Origin: Campylobacteraceae bacterium
GTDB lineage: Bacteria; Campylobacterota; Campylobacteria; Campylobacterales; Sulfurovaceae
Assembly (NCBI GenBank): GCA_027035765.1
Contig: JALVUD010000037.1
Location: 1 to 64,000 of the forward strand
DNA length: 64,000 nucleotides
Direction: 5' to 3'
Position 1 is the first letter of the stretch; every line of letters begins with the position of its first letter. The translations under genes and the position numbers were made by a program. This document shows, piece by piece, positions 1,340 through 27,387 of the stretch. The notes beneath the pieces are model-generated. The model searched no databases, had not been told where the DNA came from, and saw nothing but the letters and a program-made list of their open reading frames with translations.

Positions 1340-1367
1340 TGAGGAGTGAGGAGTGAGGAGTGAGGAG
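1340..1367 (+). repeat. Heptamer array, 4 x TGAGGAG
   Basis: Four perfect tandem TGAGGAG units fill the gap between secF and the PatB-like gene. Read on the plus strand the array carries TGA in all three frames, plus GGAG motifs 6 nt before GTG triplets. The GTG at 1353, inside the array, is the only in-frame start seen for the next gene. Confidence 0.9.
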
Positions 1368-2534
1368 CGGGATGATGCGCCCTGTTATATCGATCGCCGC
1401 GGGAGTGGGTCGAGCAAGTGGGATGCTCTCGAGGAGCGCTTCGGGCGTTCGGACCTGATCCCGCTCTGGGTGGCGGACGGCGATTTCTGCGCTCCCCGCA
1501 CCGTTCGGGAGGCGATAGCAAAACGTGCCGAGCATCCCGTGTATGGATATACGGAATACGGCGAAGGATTTTTCGACGCCATAATCCACTGGTATCGCCG
1601 CCGCTTCGGCTGGGAAATCCGCCGTGAGTGGATCGTCCCCGAGCATGGGGTGGTCATCTCTCTCAATCTGGCCATCGAAGCCTACACTGAGTCCGGAGAC
1701 GGGGTGATCGTTCAGCCCCCTATCTATCCTCCTTTCCTCAAAGCGGTTCGCCATCACAAGCGTCGCCTTCTTGAAAATCGGTTGATTGTCGGAGAAGAAG
1801 GTTGCCGGATCGATTTCGAAGATCTGGAGGCCAAAGCGGCCGAGGCGAAGCTCCTGCTGCTCTGCTCCCCTCACAACCCAGCCACCCGGGCCTGGAGTGA
1901 AGAGGAGTTGCACCAGATCGCCCGGATCGCAGAGATGCACGATCTGATCGTGGTCTCCGACGAGATCCATAGCGACATCGTCTACGATCGGCCCCACCGC
2001 CCTTTTGCCACCCTTCCGGGGATGGCGGAGCGGAGCCTGGTGCTTCACGCCCCCTCCAAGACCTTCCATATCGCCGGCCTCAATACCTCCTATGCCGTTA
2101 TCCCGAACGCTTCGCTGCGACGGCGTTATCTGGCGGCCCACGACCGGGCGGGACTGGACAATGGCAACTGCTTCGGGATCGTCGCGCTGGAAGCGGCCTA
2201 TCGGGGCGGCGAAGCCTGGCTGGAGGCGATGCTGAAGATCTACCGGGAGAATATCGACTATGTCCGCGGTTTTCTGCAGGAACATACGCCGAAGATCCGC
2301 CCGCTTCCTGTGGAGGCGACCTATCTGATCTGGCTGGACTGCCGGGAACTGGGACTGGACGATGAGGCGCTGCAGCGTTTCTTTGTCGACAGGGCACGTC
2401 TGGCCCTCAATCCGGGGATCGGCTTCGGCGAAGCGGGCAGCGGCTTCATGCGGCTCAATGTCGCCACCTCCCGGGCCAATCTCGACGAGGTGATGCGGCG
2501 ACTCGGCGCAGCCTACCGGGAGTTGGAGGGATGA
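1353..2534 (+). CDS. patB: PatB/MalY-type PLP-dependent C-S lyase (cystathionine beta-lyase family)
   Basis: A fold-type I PLP enzyme of 393 residues. Members cleave C-S bonds of cystathionine or cysteine conjugates, giving pyruvate, ammonia and a thiol. Visible motifs are the family N-terminus IDRRGSGSSKWD at about residue 13, PLWVADGDF, CSPHNPATR at about residue 171, SDEIHSD, and the PLP lysine in SKTFHIAGLN. The only in-frame start is the GTG at 1353, inside the TGAGGAG array; the array also supplies GGAG at 1343-1346. Residues 1-8 are therefore repeat-encoded, and family similarity begins just after them. The two nearby ATGs (1372, 1375) are out of frame. The substrate cannot be read from sequence. 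Confidence 0.85.
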   Translation: MRSEERDDAPCYIDRRGSGSSKWDALEERFGRSDLIPLWVADGDFCAPRTVREAIAKRAEHPVYGYTEYGEGFFDAIIHWYRRRFGWEIRREWIVPEHGVVISLNLAIEAYTESGDGVIVQPPIYPPFLKAVRHHKRRLLENRLIVGEEGCRIDFEDLEAKAAEAKLLLLCSPHNPATRAWSEEELHQIARIAEMHDLIVVSDEIHSDIVYDRPHRPFATLPGMAERSLVLHAPSKTFHIAGLNTSYAVIPNASLRRRYLAAHDRAGLDNGNCFGIVALEAAYRGGEAWLEAMLKIYRENIDYVRGFLQEHTPKIRPLPVEATYLIWLDCRELGLDDEALQRFFVDRARLALNPGIGFGEAGSGFMRLNVATSRANLDEVMRRLGAAYRELEG

Positions 2535-3931
2535 TTCGAACCCTGGCGCTGCTCTGCCTCCTCCTGTCCGGGATCTTCAGCCCCCTCGCGGCGACCCTTC
2601 CGGCGGCGATCTCCCAACTGCTGATCAAAGACCGTATCGATCCTTCCCGGGTGAGCATCTACATCACGCCGACCAAAAGTTCGAGTATCCTGGTGGCGCA
2701 CCGGATCGATGCGCAGCGCAAACCCGCTTCGGTCATCAAACTGGCCACCACCTACTCGGCACTGCTGGAGTTCGGTCCCGGATGGCGCTGGCCGACCCGG
2801 TTTTTCTACACCGGAACGTTCCGGGACGGTACGATCACCGGGGATCTGGTGGTCAAGGCCTACGGTGACCCCACCCTTTCGTGCAAAGACCTGCCCAAAA
2901 TCGTAGAGCGCCTGCGACGGATCGGCGTACGGAAGATCGAGGGTGACCTCATTATCGATCGGAGTTTTTTCGCCGTGGATGACCGGATCAGTTCCGGTTT
3001 CGATAACCACCCCTACAGCGAATACAACGCCATGCCCGAGGCGTTGATGTTTGACGATCATCTCTGTCGGATTATCGTCGATCCCACTCATGGCACGGTG
3101 GAAAAGAAGATTCCCGATCCCGGGTTTCAGGTGATCGATCGTCTGCAATACAACGACAAAGCGTGCAGGGGACGCTACAGCTGGCCGAGAGTCCATATCA
3201 GCCGGGAGGGAGAACTCAGCACCGTGACGCTGGAAGGAACACTTTCGCGTCGCTGCAGACCGCGAACCGTCAAGGCAGTGCTCAGCCATCCCTATCAGAG
3301 TTTCACCGCAGCTTTTCTGCAGGAGCTGAAGGCAGGGGGGATTACTCTGGAGGGACGAATGCGCCTGGCGAAGCTCCCTGCCGGGGCCCGGGAGCTGATG
3401 ACCCACTATGCCGCCCCTCTGCAGAAGATCCTGGCCAAGACCAACAAACACTCCAACAATCTCTACGCCCGGCATATTTTTCTGCTGCTGGGGGCCAAGC
3501 GTCTCGGTGCTCCGGCAACGGTGGCCAAAGGACGCAAGGCGGTCCGGGAGATTCTGGGAGCCCGGGGAATTCTGGGTGAAGAGACGATTCTGGACAACGG
3601 CTGCGGCCTCAGCCGCCGTACCCGGACCACGGCGAGGGCGCTGCATCGTCTCCTGGAGGATGCCTACCGCCGTTATGCCTGGACCTGGATGGGTACCCTG
3701 GCGATCGCCGGGATGGACGGGACGGTCAAACGGCGCTTTCGAAACTCTCCCGTCCGTCGCCGCGCCTGGGTCAAGACCGGGACTCTCAAAGACGCCAAAA
3801 ATATCGCCGGCTACGTCAAAGGACGCTCCGGTAAACTTTACACCGTCGTGATCCTCTACAACGGTCCCGAGCGCTGGAAAGGCGCCCTGTTGGAAAATCA
3901 GATCCTGGAGTGGATCGTTAAAAACAAATGA
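2531..3931 (+). CDS. dacB: D-alanyl-D-alanine carboxypeptidase/endopeptidase, PBP4 type (peptidase S13)
   Basis: A periplasmic penicillin-binding enzyme of 466 residues that trims peptidoglycan stem peptides or cleaves cross-links. A hydrophobic signal peptide covers residues 1-20. The three serine-transferase motifs are present: S67-V-I-K70, the SNN motif in KHSNNLYARH (about residue 312) and KTG near residue 419 in VKTGTLKDAKNIAGYV. The spacing with a large insert between the first two motifs is characteristic of the S13 family. Its ATG overlaps the stop of the preceding gene by 4 nt (ATGA), so the two are probably co-translated although functionally unrelated. Confidence 0.92.
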   Translation: MIRTLALLCLLLSGIFSPLAATLPAAISQLLIKDRIDPSRVSIYITPTKSSSILVAHRIDAQRKPASVIKLATTYSALLEFGPGWRWPTRFFYTGTFRDGTITGDLVVKAYGDPTLSCKDLPKIVERLRRIGVRKIEGDLIIDRSFFAVDDRISSGFDNHPYSEYNAMPEALMFDDHLCRIIVDPTHGTVEKKIPDPGFQVIDRLQYNDKACRGRYSWPRVHISREGELSTVTLEGTLSRRCRPRTVKAVLSHPYQSFTAAFLQELKAGGITLEGRMRLAKLPAGARELMTHYAAPLQKILAKTNKHSNNLYARHIFLLLGAKRLGAPATVAKGRKAVREILGARGILGEETILDNGCGLSRRTRTTARALHRLLEDAYRRYAWTWMGTLAIAGMDGTVKRRFRNSPVRRRAWVKTGTLKDAKNIAGYVKGRSGKLYTVVILYNGPERWKGALLENQILEWIVKNK

Positions 3932-4034: not shown

Positions 4035-5213
4035 ATGAATTTTGAAACCTACCCGTTCGAAAAACTGACTCAGCTACTGGCAGATGTGACGCCCAACAGC
4101 GACTATTCGCCTATGAGCCTCACCATCGGGGAGCCCCAGTTCGAGACGCCGGAATTTATCCGGCGGGAGCTCTGCGACGCGGCGGCGCTGCTCAACAAAT
4201 ACCCCAAAACAGCCGGAGAGACCTATCTCAAAGAGGCGATGCTGAGCTATCTGCGGCAGCGTTTCGGGCTGGAGCTGGCAATGGATCAGCTGATCCCCAG
4301 CTTTGGGACCCGGGAGCTCCTCTTCAACTTTCCCCAGTTCTATCTGCACGACAAAGCCGATCCGATGATGGCTTTCCCCAATCCCTTCTACCAGATCTAC
4401 GAAGGGGCGGCGATTGCCAGCCGGGCCAAAATTGTTCATCTGGATCTGACCCCGGAGAACGGCTTCCAGCCTCCGATTGACGAATCGCTCCTCTCCCGCT
4501 GTGACCTGGTGATCCTCAATACCCCCAACAACCCCACCGCTTCGGTGATGCCCTTTGAACAGATGCAAGCCTGGGTGCAATTGGCACAAAAGCACGATTT
4601 CCTGCTGCTCAACGACGAGTGCTACATCGATCTCTGGCTCGAGCGTCCTCTCCCCTCTCTGCTGGAGGCGAGCATTGCCGCAGGCAACCCGGAGTTTCAT
4701 AACGTCCTGGTGATCAACTCCGTCTCCAAACGCTCCAGTGCTCCGGGCCTGCGCAGCGGATTCATCGCCGGGGACCGTAAGGTGCTCGAAGCGTATCTGC
4801 GCTACCGCACCTACGTGGGCTGCGCCTCCCCGCTGCCCCTGCAGCGGGCGGCTGCCAGAGCCTGGGAGGATCAGGAGCATGTGGAGGGTTTCCGCCGCAA
4901 GTACCGTCGCAACTTTGAACTGGCAGGGGAGATCCTGGGGGTAGAGGCTCCCGAGGCGACTTTCTATATCTGGATGGAGGTCGGGGATGAGCTGGCCTTT
5001 ACCCGGGAGCTCTATCGACGCTATAATCTGAAAGTCCTGCCCGGCTCTTTCCTGGGGCGCGACGGCGTCGGCAAGGGTTACGTCCGTCTGGCCCTGGTCT
5101 ACGAAGAGACGCCGATGCGGGAGGCGCTGGAGAGGATTGCCGCCTTTCGGCGGGAATGGGATAAGATGGAAGATGGAAGATTGAGGATGGAAGATGAGAA
5201 GGTTGAAAATTGA
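4035..5213 (+). CDS. PLP-dependent aminotransferase, DapC-like (probable succinyldiaminopimelate transaminase)
   Basis: A 392-residue class I/II aminotransferase. The gene order (this gene, a small conserved protein, murC, mutS2) resembles the Helicobacter arrangement, where the equivalent is annotated as an aminotransferase of the diaminopimelate/lysine branch, so a DapC role is inferred. Motifs: SLTIGEPQFETP at the N-terminus, NTPNNPTAS at residues 162-170, the PLP lysine K232 in SVSKRSSAPGLRSGF, and the C-terminal RLAL motif. The last ~16 residues (MEDGRLRMEDEKVEN) are encoded by an ATGGAAG array and look like a repeat-derived tail, not family sequence. Confidence 0.8.
   Translation: MNFETYPFEKLTQLLADVTPNSDYSPMSLTIGEPQFETPEFIRRELCDAAALLNKYPKTAGETYLKEAMLSYLRQRFGLELAMDQLIPSFGTRELLFNFPQFYLHDKADPMMAFPNPFYQIYEGAAIASRAKIVHLDLTPENGFQPPIDESLLSRCDLVILNTPNNPTASVMPFEQMQAWVQLAQKHDFLLLNDECYIDLWLERPLPSLLEASIAAGNPEFHNVLVINSVSKRSSAPGLRSGFIAGDRKVLEAYLRYRTYVGCASPLPLQRAAARAWEDQEHVEGFRRKYRRNFELAGEILGVEAPEATFYIWMEVGDELAFTRELYRRYNLKVLPGSFLGRDGVGKGYVRLALVYEETPMREALERIAAFRREWDKMEDGRLRMEDEKVEN
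5166..5193 (+). repeat. Heptamer array, 4 x ATGGAAG-type, inside the 3' end of the aminotransferase gene
   Basis: Units ATGGAAG, ATGGAAG, ATTGAGG, ATGGAAG (28 nt) followed by degenerate purine-rich sequence. It is translated as the C-terminal tail of the upstream protein; similar bases (GGATGGAATATG) lie at the start of the next gene. Confidence 0.8.
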
Positions 5214-5228
5214 AAATAAGGATGGAAT

Positions 5229-5852
5229 ATGAATCAACAGAATGATGAAGAAAGTATAGATCTGGAGGCGTTGAAAAAGGACCCCCAGTTTCAGGAGAAT
5301 CTGAAACTGCTGGAGAAGGAGATGCGGGCCCAACGCTCCATCGCCAAGGGATATCAGCTCCTGGATGCCAAACTGCTGATGGAGGCGGAGCAGGAGGAGA
5401 TCAATGATCTTTTCACCTTCATCGTCAACGAAGCCTTCGATCGGCTCTCCCAGACCCTGAGTGAAGGGGGTCGTTTCGATATGGCCGATCCCGAGCAGTG
5501 GGCGACGGCAAGGGCGGTCTACGAGCACGGGATCCAGCGCTACAGTGAAAACGATCAGAAAGGAGCCAGAGAGATCTTTCTGATCCTCTACTACCTCATC
5601 ACCGAAGAGGAGTTGCGCGACGCCATGATGATTCACGCCGCCGCCGTGGCGGCGGGGCACGATTTTGACAGCTTCATCGAGAATCTGGCGGATGTGAAAT
5701 CGATCGATCCCAATGATGCCAGCGCCTTTTTTATCACCAGCTTCGTCCAGCCCCAGGATATTCTGCTGCAGATGTTCGCCAAAGAGGTCGCCGAAGGGAA
5801 GGCGCTGCTGGCGAAGATGGAGGAGAACAGCAAAGCTTCGAATGAGGAATGA
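5229..5852 (+). CDS. Conserved hypothetical protein between dapC-like gene and murC
   Basis: A 207-residue, acidic, mainly alpha-helical protein with no signal peptide or membrane segment. I recognise no domain. A small gene of unknown function sits at the same place, next to murC and mutS2, in other Campylobacterota, which supports it being real. An N-terminal charged helical region (about residues 1-60) precedes helices resembling a TPR-like or all-alpha bundle. The start follows an AAGGATGG ribosome-binding site. The final residues NEE and the stop are provided by a TGAGGAA array, so the natural C-terminus may have been altered. Confidence 0.7.
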   Translation: MNQQNDEESIDLEALKKDPQFQENLKLLEKEMRAQRSIAKGYQLLDAKLLMEAEQEEINDLFTFIVNEAFDRLSQTLSEGGRFDMADPEQWATARAVYEHGIQRYSENDQKGAREIFLILYYLITEEELRDAMMIHAAAVAAGHDFDSFIENLADVKSIDPNDASAFFITSFVQPQDILLQMFAKEVAEGKALLAKMEENSKASNEE

Positions 5853-5929
5853 GGAATGAGGAATGAGGAATTTGGGCGTATCGAGATACGCCGCTTTGAT
5901 ACTATCGACTATCGACTAGCGACTAGCGA
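5843..5929 (+). repeat. Paired heptamer arrays (TGAGGAA and CTATCGA/CTAGCGA) around a hairpin
   Basis: Four perfect TGAGGAA units (5843-5870) overlap the end of the preceding gene and give its stop. Four CTATCGA/CTAGCGA units lie at 5902-5929. Between them is an 8-bp stem, GGCGTATC-GA-GATACGCC (5875-5892). Confidence 0.9.
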
Positions 5930-5932
5930 CTT

Positions 5933-5949
5933 TGCCGCCTTCGGCGGCA
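5933..5949 (+). repeat. Hairpin TGCCGCC-TTC-GGCGGCA just before the murC ribosome-binding site
   Basis: A perfect 7-bp stem with a TTC loop, ending 4 nt before the GGAGG of murC (5954-5958). It belongs to a set of GAA/TTC-loop hairpins with unrelated stems in this window. It could influence murC translation, but no regulator is evident. Confidence 0.75.
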
Positions 5950-5962
5950 CCCCGGAGGCGCT

Positions 5963-7285: not shown

Positions 7286-7326
7286 AGAGGGGGGTGAGAG
7301 TCAGCAGTCGTGGCGCCGTTGGCGCA

Positions 7327-7529
7327 GTCATTGGTCATTGGTCATTGGTCATTGGGGGCAGGGCTTCAGCCCTGCATGCGGGACTAAAGTCCCGCCTCCA
7401 AAAGAAAGCGTTGCGAAGCAACACCCCAAAACCATTCCTCATTAAAAAATTGTTATTAGTTGCTGGTTATTCATTACTAGTTTCCAATCTTCGGTTCCTC
7501 ATTCCTCATTCCTCATTCCTCACTCCTCA
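7327..7529 (+). repeat. Repeat-filled gap murC-mutS2: two heptamer arrays and several hairpins
   Basis: Four perfect GTCATTG units (7327-7354) and five TTCCTCA/CTCCTCA units (7495-7529) bracket three hairpins: GCAGGGCT-TC-AGCCCTGC (7358-7375), GCGGGACT-AA-AGTCCCGC (7378-7395) and GTTGC-GAA-GCAAC (7410-7422). The second array is preceded by TCGG, as at two other TTCCTCA arrays. No gene is supported here. Confidence 0.9.
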
Positions 7530-7530
7530 C

Positions 7531-9755: not shown

Positions 9756-9761
9756 ATAGAG

Positions 9762-9830
9762 TGAGGAATGAGGAATGAGGAATGAGAAACCGAATTTTTG
9801 GAACTAGTAACGAGTAACTAGGAACTAGTA
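9762..9830 (+). repeat. Paired heptamer arrays (TGAGGAA and ACTAGTA)
   Basis: Three TGAGGAA units plus TGAGAAA (9762-9789, 28 nt) and four ACTAGTA-type units (9803-9830, 28 nt), 13 nt apart. The sequence after the first array reads ATTCGGTTTCTCA on the minus strand, nearly identical to the lead-in of the array inside asnB. Confidence 0.9.
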
Positions 9831-9840
9831 ATTTTGGTAT

Positions 9841-9868
9841 GCGTTGCTTGACAACGCTCGTTTTTATT
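9841..9868 (+). terminator. Hairpin with T-run downstream of mutS2 (terminator-like)
   Basis: GCGTTG-CTTGA-CAACGC followed by TCGTTTTTATTT. The form fits a weak intrinsic terminator for mutS2, but similar hairpins with compensatory changes recur at other loci behind TTTTGGTA, so it may primarily be a repeat family. Confidence 0.45.
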
Positions 9869-9924
9869 TCAAGAGACAAAGAGGGGCGAAGCCCCGTTCA
9901 AACGACAAACGACGAAGAAACCTC

Positions 9925-9959
9925 CCAATGACTAATGACCAGTGACCAATGACTAATGT
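9925..9959 (+). repeat. Heptamer array, CCAATGA/CTAATGA
   Basis: Four full units alternating CCAATGA, CTAATGA, CCAGTGA, CCAATGA and a degenerate fifth. It is followed at 9962-9974 by a GCACC-GAA-GGTGC hairpin. Confidence 0.8.
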
Positions 9960-10052
9960 CCGCACCGAAGGTGCCTACAAAAAGCTCCCGAAAGTCGCAA
10001 TCCAGTATAATTGACCCTAAAGAAAGTAATTGAGTTCTCTGAGAAATTGCCG

Positions 10053-10167
10053 GTTTTACTCGATAGCTCTGGCAGTCGCGAACGCAAGCGCCCGTTTTAC
10101 GGGTTGAGCGCTCCTTTGTCGCCATCGAGTAAAACCTCTCTTGTCTGTTTTTCAGAGGGTTCAATTG
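10053..10167 (+). repeat. Structured two-copy element, copy 1
   Basis: Outer arms GTTTTACTCGAT (10053-10064) and ATCGAGTAAAAC (10124-10135) pair perfectly. Inside is CCCGT-TTT-ACGGG within an AGCGC/GCGCT stem, and downstream CCTCT pairs with AGAGG before GTTCAATTG. A second copy at 59668-59862 carries a compensatory change in the outer stem. It ends 33 nt before the next gene's start. Confidence 0.8.
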
Positions 10168-15802: not shown

Positions 15803-17686
15803 ATGTGCGCGATCTTCGGTATCCTGGGATCCTATGATCCCGAGAGAGCCCGGCAAGCCTTCGACCGGCTCAGTCACCGGGGACCGGATGACAGCCGCCT
15901 GCTGCTAAAAGATGCGGGAGCCTGGGGTGTTCACCGCCTGGCCATCGAATCGGCAGGTGAAGCGATGGCCCAGCCTCTGGAGGATTCGGGCGAAGTAATT
16001 CTCTTCAACGGGGAGATCTACAACTACCGTGAACTGGCGGCAGAGCTGGAGATCGATGCGGAGTCGGAGAGCCGGGTGCTGCTGGCGGCCTGGCAAAAAT
16101 GGGGAGCCGATTTTGTCCGGCGGCTTCGGGGGATGTATGCCGTCGCCGTGATCGTACCGGAAAGCGGCAGGGTGCATCTTTTCCGGGACCCGGCGGGCAA
16201 AAAGCCTCTTTTTTACCTGATTGGCAGAGACTTCATCGCCTTCGCCAGCGAAGCCAAAGCCCTCTACACCCTCAAACCCTTCTTCCTCGAACGCCGCCAT
16301 CTGGTCCAGTACCTGGGCTACCAATCGACTATCTCACCCTGTACCCTGGACCGAGAGGTTTGCAAGCTGGAACCGGGGGGGCGGATCGAGCTTTTGCTCG
16401 ATCCGGATGGAAGATGGAAGATGGAAGATGGAAAATGTCCCAAAAGCAATTCGGTTCCTCACTCCTCACTCCTCACTCCTCACTCGCCAGACGATCCCTG
16501 GCTCTCCACTCCGATTCGCTACCGGGACAAAGGGAGTGCCGCGGCGGCGGTGGAGGCGGCGCTGCGGGAAGCGGTGGCCCTTCGTATTCCCGGCAAGATT
16601 CCCTGGGGGATGCTGCTCAGCGGCGGGCTGGACTCTTCTCTGGTGGCGGCGATGGCGGCGGAGCGAAGCAGAGAGCCGATCCGGACCTTCAGCATCGGCT
16701 ACGAGGGGTACGCAAACTACGACGAGCGTCCCTGGGCGGAGCGGACCGCCCGGCATCTGGGGGCGGAGCACCGCGCCTATGCTTTCGGAAAGCGGGAGTT
16801 TTTCGAGACCCTGGAGGCGCTGCTGCCGCTGCTGGACGAGCCCCTGGGGGATCCGGCGATGATCCCGCTCTTTTTCCTGATGCGGCAGGCGGCGAAGGAG
16901 GGGATCCGGGTGCTGCTGGGGGGCGAGGGGAGCGACGAGCTCTTTCTGGGCTATCGCACTTACCGGGAGTACTACGCGGTGGAGAAGGCGCGGGAGCTCC
17001 CCTACCGCCACTGGCTGCGAAACTATTTCCACAAACACTACTCCGAAAACCGGGAGTGGGAGTGGTACAAACGGGCCTGGGAGGATCAGCCGATCTTCCG
17101 CTCCACGGCGGAGCTCTATACCGATCTGCAGCTCAACCGGCTCCTGAAACAGAATGTCAGAGACGGTCAGAACCTGGAGGTGATCCGCCCCTGGCTGGAG
17201 CGTTTCGAAGCCTCGGAGCGCTCCCATCCTGCCGACTGGTACAGTTATCTCGATCTGAAGGTGATGCTGGGGGAGGTCTATCTGGTCAAGCAGGACCGGG
17301 TCAGTATGGCTGCCGGGATCGAAGCCCGTTCCCCTTTTCTGGACCGCCGGGTGATCGAAACCGCTTTCGCCGTCGATCCGCAGCTGCGTCTCGAGACCGC
17401 CCCCAAGGGGATCCTCAAAAAGGTGGCCGAGCCCTACCTGCCCTCGGAGATCGTCCACCGCAAAAAAAAGGGACTCAACTATCCCTTCATCGAATGGATC
17501 CTCGAAGAGGGCGGCGTCGAAACTCTCCGGAGGGTCCAGCGAAAGACGGGACTTTTCCGGGAAGAGCAGCTGAAGTTCCTGATGTCGCGTGCCGACCGGG
17601 GCAAATTCCGCCAGCACCTCTTCCCCCTTTATCTGCTGGCGAGGTGGATGGAACTCAAGTTAGGAATGAGGAATGAGGAATTTTGA
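15803..17686 (+). CDS. asnB: Asparagine synthetase (glutamine-hydrolysing), with in-frame heptamer arrays
   Basis: A 627-residue AsnB. Cys2 of MCAIFGILG is the glutaminase nucleophile; FNGEIYNYREL and the C-terminal ATP-pyrophosphatase loop LLSGGLDSSLVAAM follow. It transfers amide nitrogen from glutamine to aspartate. Between the two domains (residues about 202-227) lie two four-unit heptamer arrays, ATGGAAG and CTCCTCA, translated as repeat-like peptide (SSLLTPHS). The reading frame is kept. The C-terminus (GMRNEEF) is encoded by a TGAGGAA array. Because it lies next to housekeeping genes, true asparagine synthesis is more likely than the sugar amidation proposed for its paralogues. Confidence 0.88.
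   Translation: MCAIFGILGSYDPERARQAFDRLSHRGPDDSRLLLKDAGAWGVHRLAIESAGEAMAQPLEDSGEVILFNGEIYNYRELAAELEIDAESESRVLLAAWQKWGADFVRRLRGMYAVAVIVPESGRVHLFRDPAGKKPLFYLIGRDFIAFASEAKALYTLKPFFLERRHLVQYLGYQSTISPCTLDREVCKLEPGGRIELLLDPDGRWKMEDGKCPKSNSVPHSSLLTPHSPDDPWLSTPIRYRDKGSAAAAVEAALREAVALRIPGKIPWGMLLSGGLDSSLVAAMAAERSREPIRTFSIGYEGYANYDERPWAERTARHLGAEHRAYAFGKREFFETLEALLPLLDEPLGDPAMIPLFFLMRQAAKEGIRVLLGGEGSDELFLGYRTYREYYAVEKARELPYRHWLRNYFHKHYSENREWEWYKRAWEDQPIFRSTAELYTDLQLNRLLKQNVRDGQNLEVIRPWLERFEASERSHPADWYSYLDLKVMLGEVYLVKQDRVSMAAGIEARSPFLDRRVIETAFAVDPQLRLETAPKGILKKVAEPYLPSEIVHRKKKGLNYPFIEWILEEGGVETLRRVQRKTGLFREEQLKFLMSRADRGKFRQHLFPLYLLARWMELKLGMRNEEF
16407..16482 (+). repeat. Two heptamer arrays inside asnB (4 x ATGGAAG, 4 x CTCCTCA)
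   Basis: 16407-16434 holds ATGGAAG three times then ATGGAAA; 16455-16482 holds TTCCTCA then three CTCCTCA. They are 20 nt apart and both lack stop codons in every frame in this orientation. They map to the linker between the glutaminase and synthase domains. Confidence 0.93.
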
Positions 17687-22425: not shown

Positions 22426-23740
22426 GATCGCTGTGATCGGCCTCGGCTACGTCGGCCTGCCTCTGGCCCATGCCTTCAGTGCCAGGTACCCCGTTGTGGG
22501 GTTCGATATCGCCCAGTGGCGCATCGACGAACTGCGACAAGGACACGACCGGACCCTGGAGCTCAGTGACGAGCAGGTCAAGGAGGCGATCGACAACGGC
22601 ATGGTTTTCACCAACCGGCTGGATGATCTCGCAGACTGCAATGTCTACATCGTCACTGTTCCCACCCCCATCGACGAGCACAAAACCCCTGATCTGACCC
22701 CGCTCAAAAAGGCCAGCGAATCCATCGGCAAGGTCCTCAAAGCCGGTGATATCGTCATCTACGAATCCACCGTCTACCCCGGAGCCACCGAAGAGGTCTG
22801 CGTCCCCATCCTGGAAAAGGTCTCCGGCCTCAAATATATCTCATCCGACAATAGCTCCTCACTCCTCACTCCTCACTCCTCACTCACAGAAGAAAGCGAT
22901 GGTTTCTTTTGTGGTTATTCCCCCGAACGCATCAACCCCGGCGACAAGGAGCACACTGTCACCAGGATCCTCAAAGTCACCTCCGGTTCCACGCCCGAGA
23001 TCGCCAAAGAGATCGATGCACTCTACGCCAGTGTCATCACCGCCGGCACCCATCTGGCCCCCAGCATCCGGGTGGCCGAAGCGGCCAAGGTGATCGAAAA
23101 CGCCCAGCGCGATATCAACATCGCCTTTGTCAACGAACTGGCCCTGATCTTCGACAAGCTGGGCATCGATACCCACGACGTCCTAGCCGCCGCGGGGACC
23201 AAATGGAACTTCCTGCCCTTCAAACCGGGGCTGGTGGGCGGCCACTGCATCGGGGTCGATCCCTACTACCTGACCTACAAGGCCAAGGAGGTGGGCTACC
23301 ACCCCGAGGTGATCCTCTCCGGGCGCCGGATCAACGACAACATGGGGATCCATGTCGCCAACAAAGTGGTCAAACTGATGATCCACAAAGGCCACCGGGT
23401 CAAAGATGCCCGCGTCCTCGTCCTGGGCATCACCTTCAAGGAGAACTGCCCCGACATCCGCAACAGCCGCGTCATCGACGTTATCCGTGAACTGCAGGAT
23501 TTCGGCTGCCGGGTCGACGTCTACGATCCCTGGGCCGATCCCGAAGAGGTGAAACATGAATACGGGATCGATCTCACCGAAATCCAGAATCCAGAATCCA
23601 GAATCCATAATTACGATTCAGTCGTATTAGCTGTCGCCCATGACGAGTTCAAGACACTGAACCTTGGACACGACGAATCGACCGTGCTCTTCGATATCAA
23701 AGGGATCGTCGACAAAGAGAAAACCGACGGGAGACTGTAG
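22412..23740 (+). CDS. wbpA: UDP-N-acetyl-D-hexosamine 6-dehydrogenase (WbpA/WbpO/TviB type), with in-frame arrays
   Basis: A 442-residue NAD-dependent dehydrogenase oxidising UDP-GlcNAc (or UDP-GalNAc) to the uronic acid. Motifs: VIGLGYVGLPLAHAF at the N-terminus, GYSPERINPGDK, the catalytic cysteine in KPGLVGGHCIGVDPYY, and the C-terminal ITFKENCPDIRNSRV. Two four-unit heptamer arrays are translated in frame: CTCCTCA at residues about 148-157 (SSLLTPHS), just before GFFCGYSPER, and AATCCAG at about 390-399 (IQNPESRI), before SVVLAVAHDEF. Both fall in likely surface loops. With wbpB, wbpE and wbpD it forms a UDP-GlcNAc(3NAc)A pathway. Confidence 0.9.
   Translation: MNNYRIAVIGLGYVGLPLAHAFSARYPVVGFDIAQWRIDELRQGHDRTLELSDEQVKEAIDNGMVFTNRLDDLADCNVYIVTVPTPIDEHKTPDLTPLKKASESIGKVLKAGDIVIYESTVYPGATEEVCVPILEKVSGLKYISSDNSSSLLTPHSSLTEESDGFFCGYSPERINPGDKEHTVTRILKVTSGSTPEIAKEIDALYASVITAGTHLAPSIRVAEAAKVIENAQRDINIAFVNELALIFDKLGIDTHDVLAAAGTKWNFLPFKPGLVGGHCIGVDPYYLTYKAKEVGYHPEVILSGRRINDNMGIHVANKVVKLMIHKGHRVKDARVLVLGITFKENCPDIRNSRVIDVIRELQDFGCRVDVYDPWADPEEVKHEYGIDLTEIQNPESRIHNYDSVVLAVAHDEFKTLNLGHDESTVLFDIKGIVDKEKTDGRL
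22855..22882 (+). repeat. Heptamer array inside wbpA, 4 x CTCCTCA
   Basis: Four perfect CTCCTCA units, identical to the second array inside asnB. The strand read has no stop in any frame. It adds roughly a dozen residues relative to what family motifs lead me to expect at this loop. Confidence 0.92.
23581..23608 (+). repeat. Heptamer array inside wbpA, 4 x AATCCAG
   Basis: AATCCAG three times then AATCCAT, 28 nt, translated in frame as part of wbpA near its C-terminal domain. Confidence 0.9.
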
Positions 23741-25432: not shown

Positions 25433-26388
25433 AGAAATTTGCACTGATCGGAGCGGCAGGCTATATCGCTCCCCGGCATATGAAGGCGATCCGGGAGACC
25501 GGCAACGACCTGGTGGCGGCGATGGACCGTTGTGACAGTGTCGGGGTCATCGACAGCTTTTTTCCCGAAGCCAGCTTCTTTACCGAATTCGAGCGCTTCG
25601 ATCGTCATGTGGACAAACTGCGGCTGAAAGAGGAAACCAAAATAGATTTTGTCTCCATCACCAGTCCCAACTACCTCCACGATGCCCACATCCGCTGGGC
25701 GCTTCGCAGCGGTGCCGATGCCATCTGTGAAAAGCCGCTGGTCCTCAACCCCTGGAACATCGACGCCCTCGAAGAGGTGGAGCGGCGCAATGGCGGGCGG
25801 GTCTACAATATCCTCCAGCTCCGTCTGCACCCCTCCATCGTGGCTCTGAAGGAGAAGGTGAGCTGCGAACTGGCGGAGAATCCCGACAGGGTCTACGACA
25901 TCGATCTGACCTATCTCACCAGCCGGGGCAAGTGGTATTTCATCAGCTGGAAAGGGGACGAGGCCAAAAGCGGGGGTATCGCCAGCAATATCGGGGTCCA
26001 TTTCTACGATATGCTCAGCTGGATCTTCGGAGAGGTGGAGGAGAACATCGTCCACCTCAAGACCCCCTACGCCAATGCAGGCTACCTCAAGCTCAGACAT
26101 GCCAATGTCCGGTGGTTCCTCTCCGTCGTCTACGACTATATTCCCGACGAGATCAAAGCCCAGGGACAGCGAACCTACCGCTCCATCACCGTCGACGGTG
26201 AGGAGATCGAATTCAGCGGCGGCTTCACGGACCTGCATACCCGCAGCTACGAGGAGATCCTCAAAGGCAACGGCTTCGGCCTCCAGGAGGCCCGTCCCTC
26301 CATCGAGATCGTCTCCACCATCCGCCACCTCGAACCCGTCGGCCTGAAGGGGGAGTATCATCCGTTTTGTAGGAAGGTAGAAGGGTGA
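25429..26388 (+). CDS. wbpB: UDP-GlcNAcA 3-dehydrogenase, WbpB/WlbA type (Gfo/Idh/MocA family)
   Basis: A 319-residue oxidoreductase. It begins KKFALIGAAGYIAPRHMKAI, nearly the WbpB N-terminus, with SPNYLHDAHIRWAL, ICEKPLV, LTYLTSRGKWYF.SWKGDE and SNIGVHFYDML following. It oxidises C3 of UDP-GlcNAcA for the WbpE aminotransferase. The last residues (RKVEG) and the stop lie in the left array of the inserted four-helix-bundle element, so the natural C-terminus was probably replaced by a few residues. It overlaps pglK by ATGA and the next gene by GTGA. Confidence 0.9.
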   Translation: MKKFALIGAAGYIAPRHMKAIRETGNDLVAAMDRCDSVGVIDSFFPEASFFTEFERFDRHVDKLRLKEETKIDFVSITSPNYLHDAHIRWALRSGADAICEKPLVLNPWNIDALEEVERRNGGRVYNILQLRLHPSIVALKEKVSCELAENPDRVYDIDLTYLTSRGKWYFISWKGDEAKSGGIASNIGVHFYDMLSWIFGEVEENIVHLKTPYANAGYLKLRHANVRWFLSVVYDYIPDEIKAQGQRTYRSITVDGEEIEFSGGFTDLHTRSYEEILKGNGFGLQEARPSIEIVSTIRHLEPVGLKGEYHPFCRKVEG

Positions 26389-26804
26389 AGGTAGAAGGGA
26401 GAAGGAATAGTTATCGGGATCTGCTTGTGTGGCAGAAATCGATGATACTTGCCAAAGAAGTCTATCTCCTGAGCGGGAACTTTCCAAAGGAAGAGATGTA
26501 TGGTCTCACTTCCCAGATCAGAAGGTCTGCGATTTCCGTACCCAGCAATATCGCCGAAGGTCGTGGCAGAGGCGGAGACAGGGAATTTGTGAGATTTTTG
26601 CAAATAGCCCTGGGATCATTATACGAACTGCAGACACAAATGGAATTGGCACAGCAATTGGGATTGACGGAAAATATTGAGAGTGTTATCGGTCTATCGT
26701 ATGAATTGGAAAAAATGATCAATAGCTTAATTACCTCCAAAGGAGGCCGAAATGGATAAAGTCGGAGATTCCACCCCTTCTCCCTTCTACCTTCACCCTT
26801 CTTC
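26377..26804 (+). mobile_element. Candidate mobile element: four-helix-bundle gene between inverted heptamer arrays
   Basis: Left array 26377-26404 (GTAGAAG, GGTGAAG, GTAGAAG, GGAGAAG) and right array 26777-26804 are inverted copies; 26379-26405 and 26776-26802 are perfect 27-bp inverted repeats. Between them is one gene of the S23/IVS four-helix-bundle family. The element sits inside the wbpB-wbpD junction. The left array gives wbpB its stop and the inner gene its GTG; the sequence inside the right end gives wbpD its ribosome-binding site and ATG. The family is known from intervening sequences in 23S rRNA genes, which also end in inverted repeats. Mobility is inferred. Confidence 0.65.
26385..26759 (+). 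CDS. Four-helix-bundle protein, S23/23S rRNA intervening-sequence protein family
   Basis: A 124-residue helical protein with the family hallmarks: [47 protein letters not shown] and [13 protein letters not shown]. Structures of relatives form four-helix bundles that assemble as pentamers; they are encoded within 23S rRNA intervening sequences and are related to Avd of diversity-generating retroelements. No function is proven for stand-alone copies. The first residues (KVEGRRN) come from the left array; AGGAAGG lies 7 nt before the GTG. No reverse transcriptase or variable repeat is nearby, so this is not a retroelement. It breaks an otherwise pathway-specific gene order. Confidence 0.88.
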
Positions 26805-27387
26805 CTATAAAGATGACAACGTCACCATCGGTGCCGGGACGAAGATCTGGCACTTCTGCCATATCCTGCCCGAGACCGTCATCGGAGAGAACTGCTCCTT
26901 CGGCCAGAACTGTGTCGTCGGGCCGAGGGTGAAGGTGGGCAGTGGGGTCAAGGTGCAGAACAATGTATCGATCTACGAAGGGGTGGAGGTGGAGGATGAT
27001 GTCTTTCTGGGGCCTTCGATGGTCTTTACCAACGTCATCAACCCGAGAGCTTTCATTCAACGCAAAGAGGAGTTCAGAAAAACTCTGTTGAAGAAGGGTT
27101 GCTCCGTGGGCGCCAACGCCACCATCGTCTGCGGGGTCACCATCGGCGAGTATGCGCTGATCGGTAGCGGAGCGGTGGTGACGAAGGATGTTCCTCCCTA
27201 TGCATTGATGGTGGGCGTCCCGGCCCGCCGGATCGGCTGGGTGGGGATCTCCGGTGAGACACTGGTTTTCAATGAACAGGGCATAGCCGTCGATAGATAC
27301 GACGGAAGGAGATACAGATTGAAAGGTGATAGAATTACATTGATTCAGGAGAGATCCGACGGAGACTTTCTTGACAAGATGAAATAG
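26752..27387 (+). CDS. wbpD: UDP-GlcNAc(3N)A N-acetyltransferase, WbpD/WlbB type
   Basis: A 211-residue left-handed beta-helix acyltransferase with hexapeptide repeats (about residues 25-150), [15 protein letters not shown], and [34 protein letters not shown], all typical of WbpD. It acetylates the 3-amino group made by WbpE. The ATG and its AAAGGAGG site lie within the inserted element; residues about 8-18 ([11 protein letters not shown]) are encoded by the right array. Family similarity resumes at YLHPSS, so array and native sequence coincide there. A second, shorter homologue lies at 28494. Confidence 0.88.

Follow-up and report, generated by a model that had tools for sequence, protein, structure and literature searches.

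A heptamer repeat array as the probable translation start region of patB in a Nitratifractor-like genus

Tandem repeats at the 5′ end of a gene are familiar from phase-variable simple-sequence-repeat loci, for example in Haemophilus, and the patB gene considered here carries a repeat in that position. The closest described case that we found is the heptamer TAACTGA, which forms intergenic direct repeats in marine Beggiatoaceae, Cyanobacteria and Bacteroidetes; according to the parts of the report consulted, these repeats lie mostly just upstream of start codons, and a translational role has been proposed for them (MacGregor 2015, PMC4679880). Within the partial coverage of our literature search, no report was found of heptamer arrays that themselves form the Shine-Dalgarno (SD) site, the start codon and the first codons of a gene, nor anything relevant on Nitratifractor tandem repeats or on four-helix-bundle elements with repeats.

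The array analyzed here lies between secF and patB in a deep-sea sulphur bacterium (genome G000) of a Nitratifractor-like genus, within a window that comprises the whole stretch of 64,000 nucleotides under study. Positions 1333–1380 read TAG TGAG TGAGGAG TGAGGAG TGAGGAG TGAGGAG CGGGATGATGCGC, and the secF-patB interval can be written as TAG TGAG (TGAGGAG)x4 CGGGATGATGCGCCC. Tandem Repeats Finder places the array at 1337–1367 with a period of 7, 4.4 copies and a 100% match, exact over 31 nt, and the pattern TGAGGAGTGAGGAG, searched with at most one mismatch, has 10 matches in the window against 0.04 expected. The features of the junction are the following:

364–1335, + strand: secF, protein translocase subunit, with its stop codon TAG at 1333–1335 (TIGR00966, 324.9 bits, cut-off 160)
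1336–1367, + strand: heptamer array directly after secF, a partial unit TGAG and four exact TGAGGAG units
1336–1339, + strand: the partial unit TGAG, followed by the full units at 1340–1346, 1347–1353, 1354–1360 and 1361–1367
1341–1346, + strand: proposed SD site GAGGAG of unit 1, 6 nt before GTG
1347–1349, + strand: in-frame TGA, the upstream bound of the patB frame, kept in 6/6 array-type orthologues
1353–1355, + strand: patB start codon GTG, across the boundary of units 2 and 3, NTG in 6/6 array-type orthologues
1353–1367, + strand: array-coded patB N-terminus, GTG AGG AGT GAG GAG (M/V-R-S-E-E)
1353–2534, + strand: patB, PLP-dependent C-S lyase of the PatB/MalY type, 393 aa (TIGR04350, PF00155)
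2531–3931, + strand: Peptidase_S13 gene (PF02113, E = 2.4e-85), overlapping the end of patB by 4 nt (ATGA)

The encoded protein belongs to the PatB family, matching TIGR04350 with 476.6 bits (cut-off 340) over residues 13–387. GTG 1353 is the first start in the patB frame past the TGA at 1347, and no other NTG in that frame stands ahead of the TIGR04350-matched part; the next one comes some 40 residues into the protein, at the WVADGDF core, which is conserved. The signals at this GTG are those of an SD-led start, with GAGGAG at a spacing of 6 nt, inside the 4–9 nt expected between an SD core and NTG, and complementary to the CCTCC end of 16S rRNA. The 16S rRNA of G000 itself was not found in the draft assembly, and the tail was therefore taken from the relative G001, where it ends in TGGATCACCTCC; the pattern matched at both 16S 3′ ends of that genome closes with CCTCC. 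Upstream of called genes, no site is more frequent than GGAG at 5–7 nt, whether in the window or in the sample of G001. These features support the view that the array supplies the ribosome-binding site, the start codon and the first five codons of patB.

We sought patB-like genes in 13 genomes of the genus, and a close orthologue next to secF was readable in nine (G000, G003, G008, G011, G010, G002, G001, G007 and G006). G005, G009 and G012 yielded distant aminotransferases alone, and G004 a 54% relative adjoining secF. Six of the nine readable junctions contain a four-unit array in the same phase, with units 1–4 as follows:

G000 and G003: TGAGGAG x4
G011: TGAGGAG TGAGGAG TGAGGAG TGCGGAG
G010: CGAGGAG TGAGCAA TGAGCAG TGAGGAG
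G002: CGAGGAG TGAGCAG TGAGCAG TGAGGCG
G007: TGAGGAG TGAGAAG TGAGAAG TGAGGAG

All six have NTG at the same codon (GTG in five, ATG in G010), GAGGAG upstream of it and TGA 6 nt upstream, in proteins whose identity goes down to 68%; the other three junctions have different leaders. The GAGGAG of unit 1 is identical throughout, while units 2–3 have lost this motif in three genomes. From the start codon to a conserved Pro codon no indel occurs in the six, the array-coded N-termini of the relatives read VRSEE, VRSAE, MSSEE, VSSEA and VRSEE, and the gap between secF and patB is always 17–18 nt. Across pairs of array types, the arrays are identical at 23–28 of 28 positions compared with 48–80% at fourfold-degenerate sites (P <= 0.0026 in 14 of 15 pairs, 0.06 for G010–G002), which is weaker evidence than it appears because tandem repeats homogenise, and is no proof of selection alone. 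Five genus members, including Nitratifractor sp. S013_45, match public assemblies, and four of these carry the array; therefore, it does not stem from one bad assembly.

A preliminary description of this DNA, made from the sequence alone, had proposed that a TGAGGAG array appears to provide the start signals of patB, with GTG 1353 as the only usable start and GGAG 6 nt upstream. The proposal is well supported by the conserved arrangement in the relatives, and both the uniqueness of the start and the spacing proved correct. The same description drew the array from 1340 to 1376; it runs from 1336, with the partial unit, to 1367, so 1368–1376 fall outside. It had also held that a conserved native start overlapping the site would speak against the idea. 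This holds only by half: a start is conserved there, but what is conserved is the array itself.

Other leaders occur within the genus. In G008, G001 and G006, secF is followed by a heptamer array of another kind, by TTTTGG and, after a GC-rich hairpin in G008, by a separate leader. The leaders of G008 and G001 are homologous, agreeing at 28/40 positions and at 20 of the first 23. In G000, 13 of the 15 nt that follow the array are identical to G008; if the direction of change is read correctly, the array seems to have replaced the native leader at that point in G000. The more distant G004 has an ordinary start, a short N-terminus and no array, with the secF stop, 17 nt containing AAAGG, and ATG. 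Similarly, the three Sulfurovaceae outgroups (L066, L067 and L068) all have short N-termini and no array; secF lies about 400 nt upstream in L068, and no secF match was present in the stretches examined of L066 and L067. Because the outgroups lack the array and have short N-termini, the array form is derived relative to them, together with an N-terminal tail of about 8–9 residues, five of them array-coded. The array thus appears to have taken the place of an ordinary start and brought this tail with it. The patB tree does not group the array carriers, requiring at least two changes (144/500 shuffles were as low), and it places the arrayless G008 with the array-bearing G000 and G003 (99/98 support), so gain, loss or recombination took place more than once. 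Candidate histories are recombination, gain on several occasions, and one gain that was later lost in G008 and G001. The array is also dispensable, since a close relative, G008, uses another leader without an array start.

Taken together, we consider it probable that a repeat array was co-opted as the start region of patB, with a fixed frame, a minimum of four units and expression from the secF transcript. An interspersed heptamer repeat, of a family that fills intergenic gaps of the genus, would have been taken over for this function. The 16S rRNA tail would pair with the GAGGAG of unit 1, the GTG at the junction of units 2 and 3 would be the start codon, and units 3–4 would encode the first residues of the N-terminal tail that the arrayless outgroups lack. 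The anatomy, the conservation and the fixed frame of this start can be read directly from the genomes compared. When arrays of 1–8 units were simulated, the start lay 15 nt before the array end for 2–8 units, and GAGGAG required at least four units. Because a TGA stands 6 nt upstream of every in-frame GTG, the distance of the start from the array end is constant, and unit gain moves neither start nor frame. Since GAGGAG is lost with three or fewer units, four is the smallest working number. Four units would also leave the shortest gap to secF (17 nt), and the four-unit minimum for a full site may be the reason why four is kept. We infer that ribosomes use GTG 1353 and that secF and patB are co-transcribed; translation of patB would probably begin directly at this strong site on the secF transcript, and ribosomes ending secF may give some help through coupling.

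The preliminary description had suggested that the array could act as a stop-and-restart module. Applied to patB, this would give those ribosomes a larger role: on ending secF they would reinitiate at GTG 1353, with the TGAs of the array as stops in other frames. Each unit indeed holds a TGA, a GGAG and, across the unit boundary, a GTG, and only 0.64% of all heptamers give a stop, an SD site and a start when placed in tandem. The gap of 17–18 nt is common to the six array types and recurs, at 17 nt, in the arrayless G004. However, secF ends at its own conserved stop (TAG, TAA or TGA after EQGT[I/L]), outside the array, in 9/9 genus junctions, so that the stop half of the idea fails at patB and the array TGAs are unneeded for ending secF. 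The SD site would also be strong enough for independent initiation. The restart half is doubtful: according to the parts of a study of coupling that were consulted, a distance of about 20 nt nearly abolishes coupling and +14 nt costs 40–80% of it, while distances of +11 to +20 nt, the range into which the patB gap falls, are gene-dependent and were left out of that study's comparison, coupling varying strongly between genes (PMC10666635). For patB, reinitiation by secF ribosomes is accordingly a possible but doubtful explanation.

The same notion fares better elsewhere in the window, at an element located between two sugar-pathway genes:

26373–26806, + strand: four-helix-bundle element with inverted arrays
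26373–26405: its left, purine-rich heptamer array, with a GTGA stop/start overlap at 26385–26388
26385–26759: four-helix-bundle ORF, 124 aa (PF05635, E = 1.1e-36)
26775–26806: inverted array, translated as the N-terminal part of the downstream gene, which encodes a hexapeptide transferase (start ATG 26752)

Here, the TGA at 26386–26388 in the left array ends the upstream oxidoreductase and the overlapping GTG 26385 starts the PF05635 protein. The GTGA overlap that had been noted for this element is therefore real, and an array-borne overlap of this kind is a point in favor of stop-and-restart; the module applies literally at 26385, where it fits better than at patB. By eye, from the translation, the same oxidoreductase gene in G008 (locus L317) precedes another array and, after it, another four-helix-like ORF, as if the insertion site had been reused between G000 and G008.

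Seven-base periodicity pervades the window. Counting exact tandem runs with 14 or more matched positions gave 14 at lag 7 and 10 at its multiple, lag 14, with none at lags 3–6, 8–13 or 15, and 20/20 first-order Markov simulations contained no such run. Genome-wide, G000 has 19 places with (TGAGGAG)3, grouped by eye from 36 overlapping matches: one starts a gene, four end one, four lie inside genes and 10 are intergenic. Similarly, 400 kb spread over G001 hold 30 arrays, with 22 intergenic, four at stops, three inside genes and one at a start, in another orientation. Arrays that touch genes more often end them than start them, and the suggestion of a general start module was rejected as a genome-wide rule, as most arrays in the genus are not at starts. 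Among 232 arrays from loci chosen largely because they contain arrays, a called start lies in 10, nine of them in sense orientation, with three patB orthologues and two lpxH genes among these nine; this set is biased by the choice of array-bearing loci, no rate is derivable from it, and the gene calls come from a codon-usage script with approximate starts. (TGAGGAG)3 is found in 36/175 genomes of the family. Reversed TGAGGAG is a rotation of TGAGGAG, and a search with the reversed pattern is no control for array counts.

Read in sense orientation, arrays of TGAGGAG or TGAGGAA have a stop in each of the three frames; read the other way, they have none. Because the inverse orientation is stop-free, arrays lie open inside asnB (16406–16485, between the amidotransferase and synthase domains) and inside the UDP-sugar dehydrogenase gene (22855–22885 and 23581–23607), in frame in each case. 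These two units account for 22/44 arrays in the two unbiased samples (7/14 in the window, 15/30 in G001), which suggests that they are common here as members of the small set of heptamers offering stop, SD site and start; purine richness alone might explain part of the excess.

The region holds other repeats as well. Orthologous gaps, for instance 5840–5962 between the genes at 5229 and 5963, have arrays in the same place that often consist of other seven-base units from species to species, and this comparison of gaps suggests rapid array replacement. The C-terminus of the aminotransferase gene at 4035–5213 is coded by an AAGATGG array (5163–5206), and its orthologues end with other arrays or hairpins. 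Composite intergenic elements of fixed polarity occur at 7310–7530 and 9756–9967, with many partial copies genus-wide; their order is a TGAGGAR array, an AACTAGT array, TTTTGG, a GC hairpin and, last, arrays of CAAACGA or CAATGAC. At 10027–10166 lies a palindrome-like element of some 140 bp that is not made of heptamers; it has dozens of copies, mostly 82–95% identical, in at least six genus genomes and looks like a small non-coding mobile element.

Such abundance raises the question of whether the patB array is a neutral passenger, that is, a selfish or slippage-born array that chanced on an in-frame GTG and has been conserved by descent and slow change, without selection. Many-unit arrays fill, and turn over in, other gaps of the same syntenic block, a sense array would give GTG with GGAG automatically in two of three exit frames, judging from the unit itself, and G008, G001 and G006 manage without an array start. 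Nevertheless, GTG remains the only patB start, and the array therefore supplies the start regardless. The SD unit is retained while units 2–3 decay, and in other gaps the arrays of orthologous sites usually have another unit or another copy number. We regard chance descent as an unlikely account of the locus.

Switching of patB by slippage gain or loss of units is very improbable. Heptamer tandem repeats are thought to be slippage-prone (a proposal cited in PMC4679880, in the parts consulted), but the array has four units in all six species that carry it, a between-species count that may mean just slow change, as one other array pair (g5963–g7548 gap, G000 and G011) is also nearly unchanged. 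Moreover, unit gain would leave frame and start as they are, and only loss below four units would weaken the SD site. Finally, although arrayless relatives begin near that residue (MLEFLDRRG in G004), a true start at a downstream non-NTG codon such as ATC 1389, with the array untranslated, is scarcely credible, since NTG recurs in 6/6 only at position 1353, the frame is kept to the Pro codon in 6/6, and ATC start codons are very rare.

A co-opted array start at patB has a parallel at a second junction, between argC (PF01118/PF22698) and a phosphoesterase gene assigned to lpxH by weak LpxH and metallophosphoesterase matches. This junction was matched in 11/13 genus genomes; the G000 copy is cut by the contig end, and the matches in G010, G002 and G012 are flagged with one stop inside the aligned stretch. 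In G011, G007 and G001, the lpxH start is a GTG within a TGAGGAG/A array (VRSEE.., VRSEE.. and VRNEE.., respectively). By eye, the lpxH start of G010, G002, G003 and G008 falls within arrays built of other units or at their margin (GGATGTT, GAGAATG and GGAAGAT types), and an inverted array follows the start and is translated into the N-terminus. No clear array was seen at this junction in G006, and none in G009 or G012. The lpxH-like gene of G011 (L240, G011:C43) has TGAGGAG arrays at both ends, one holding its start and a second its C-terminus (..REVRSEE), so that repeat sequence codes for both termini. Further candidates for array starts are rsmG in G007 (L260), moaE in G001 (L250) and ppx/gppA in G001 (L244).

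A tentative reading joins these loci, in which the polar arrays would be translation adaptors built into a family of mobile elements, PF05635 genes among them, with patB and lpxH as domesticated cases. The purine-rich left array would carry a stop, a ribosome site and a start in every frame, and the pyrimidine-rich inverted right array, stop-free in all frames, would be translated into the next gene, so that elements could enter operons without silencing downstream genes. On this view, patB and lpxH would have kept the left adaptor as a permanent start, with or without the right one. If true, this idea would explain the low-cost spread of small elements with seven-base arrays through operons.

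Compared with known systems, the patB array shares several features with canonical SD-led initiation at operon junctions, namely GAGGAG, a 6-nt spacing, GTG and a short gap after the upstream gene. In contrast to such junctions, however, its signals are all made from a tandem repeat that recurs across the genome. With termination-reinitiation coupling, as described in the parts of PMC10666635 consulted, it has in common co-directed neighbours and a short gap, but the gap of +17/18 nt involves no overlap, and coupling is a candidate reading. Unlike phase-variable loci, patB has a frame insensitive to unit gain and a constant copy number. The nearest likeness is to the TAACTGA repeats, which are also seven-base direct repeats in few copies, mostly intergenic, with some at starts or overlapping upstream stops; as far as the portion consulted goes, that system has one dominant unit, rare related heptamers, little SD character and a repeat upstream of the start (PMC4679880). 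In this genus, by contrast, arrays of many different units are found side by side, the unit is rich in SD sequence, and start codon and first codons themselves consist of repeat DNA, while most arrays are not at starts (1/19 in G000; 1/30 in the 400-kb sample of G001, in another orientation). With TGAGGAG as its unit and no majority of arrays before starts in one orientation, the patB array does not belong to the TAACTGA type proper, and we regard it as a variant of the known intergenic heptamer repeats (PMC4679880, in part). It is a clear case, in relatives down to 68% protein identity, of a tandem repeat supplying the start signals of a metabolic enzyme gene. These findings indicate that repeat DNA can be taken over as a translation start signal, and comparing array starts is relevant to genes whose starts may be set wrongly by annotation pipelines.
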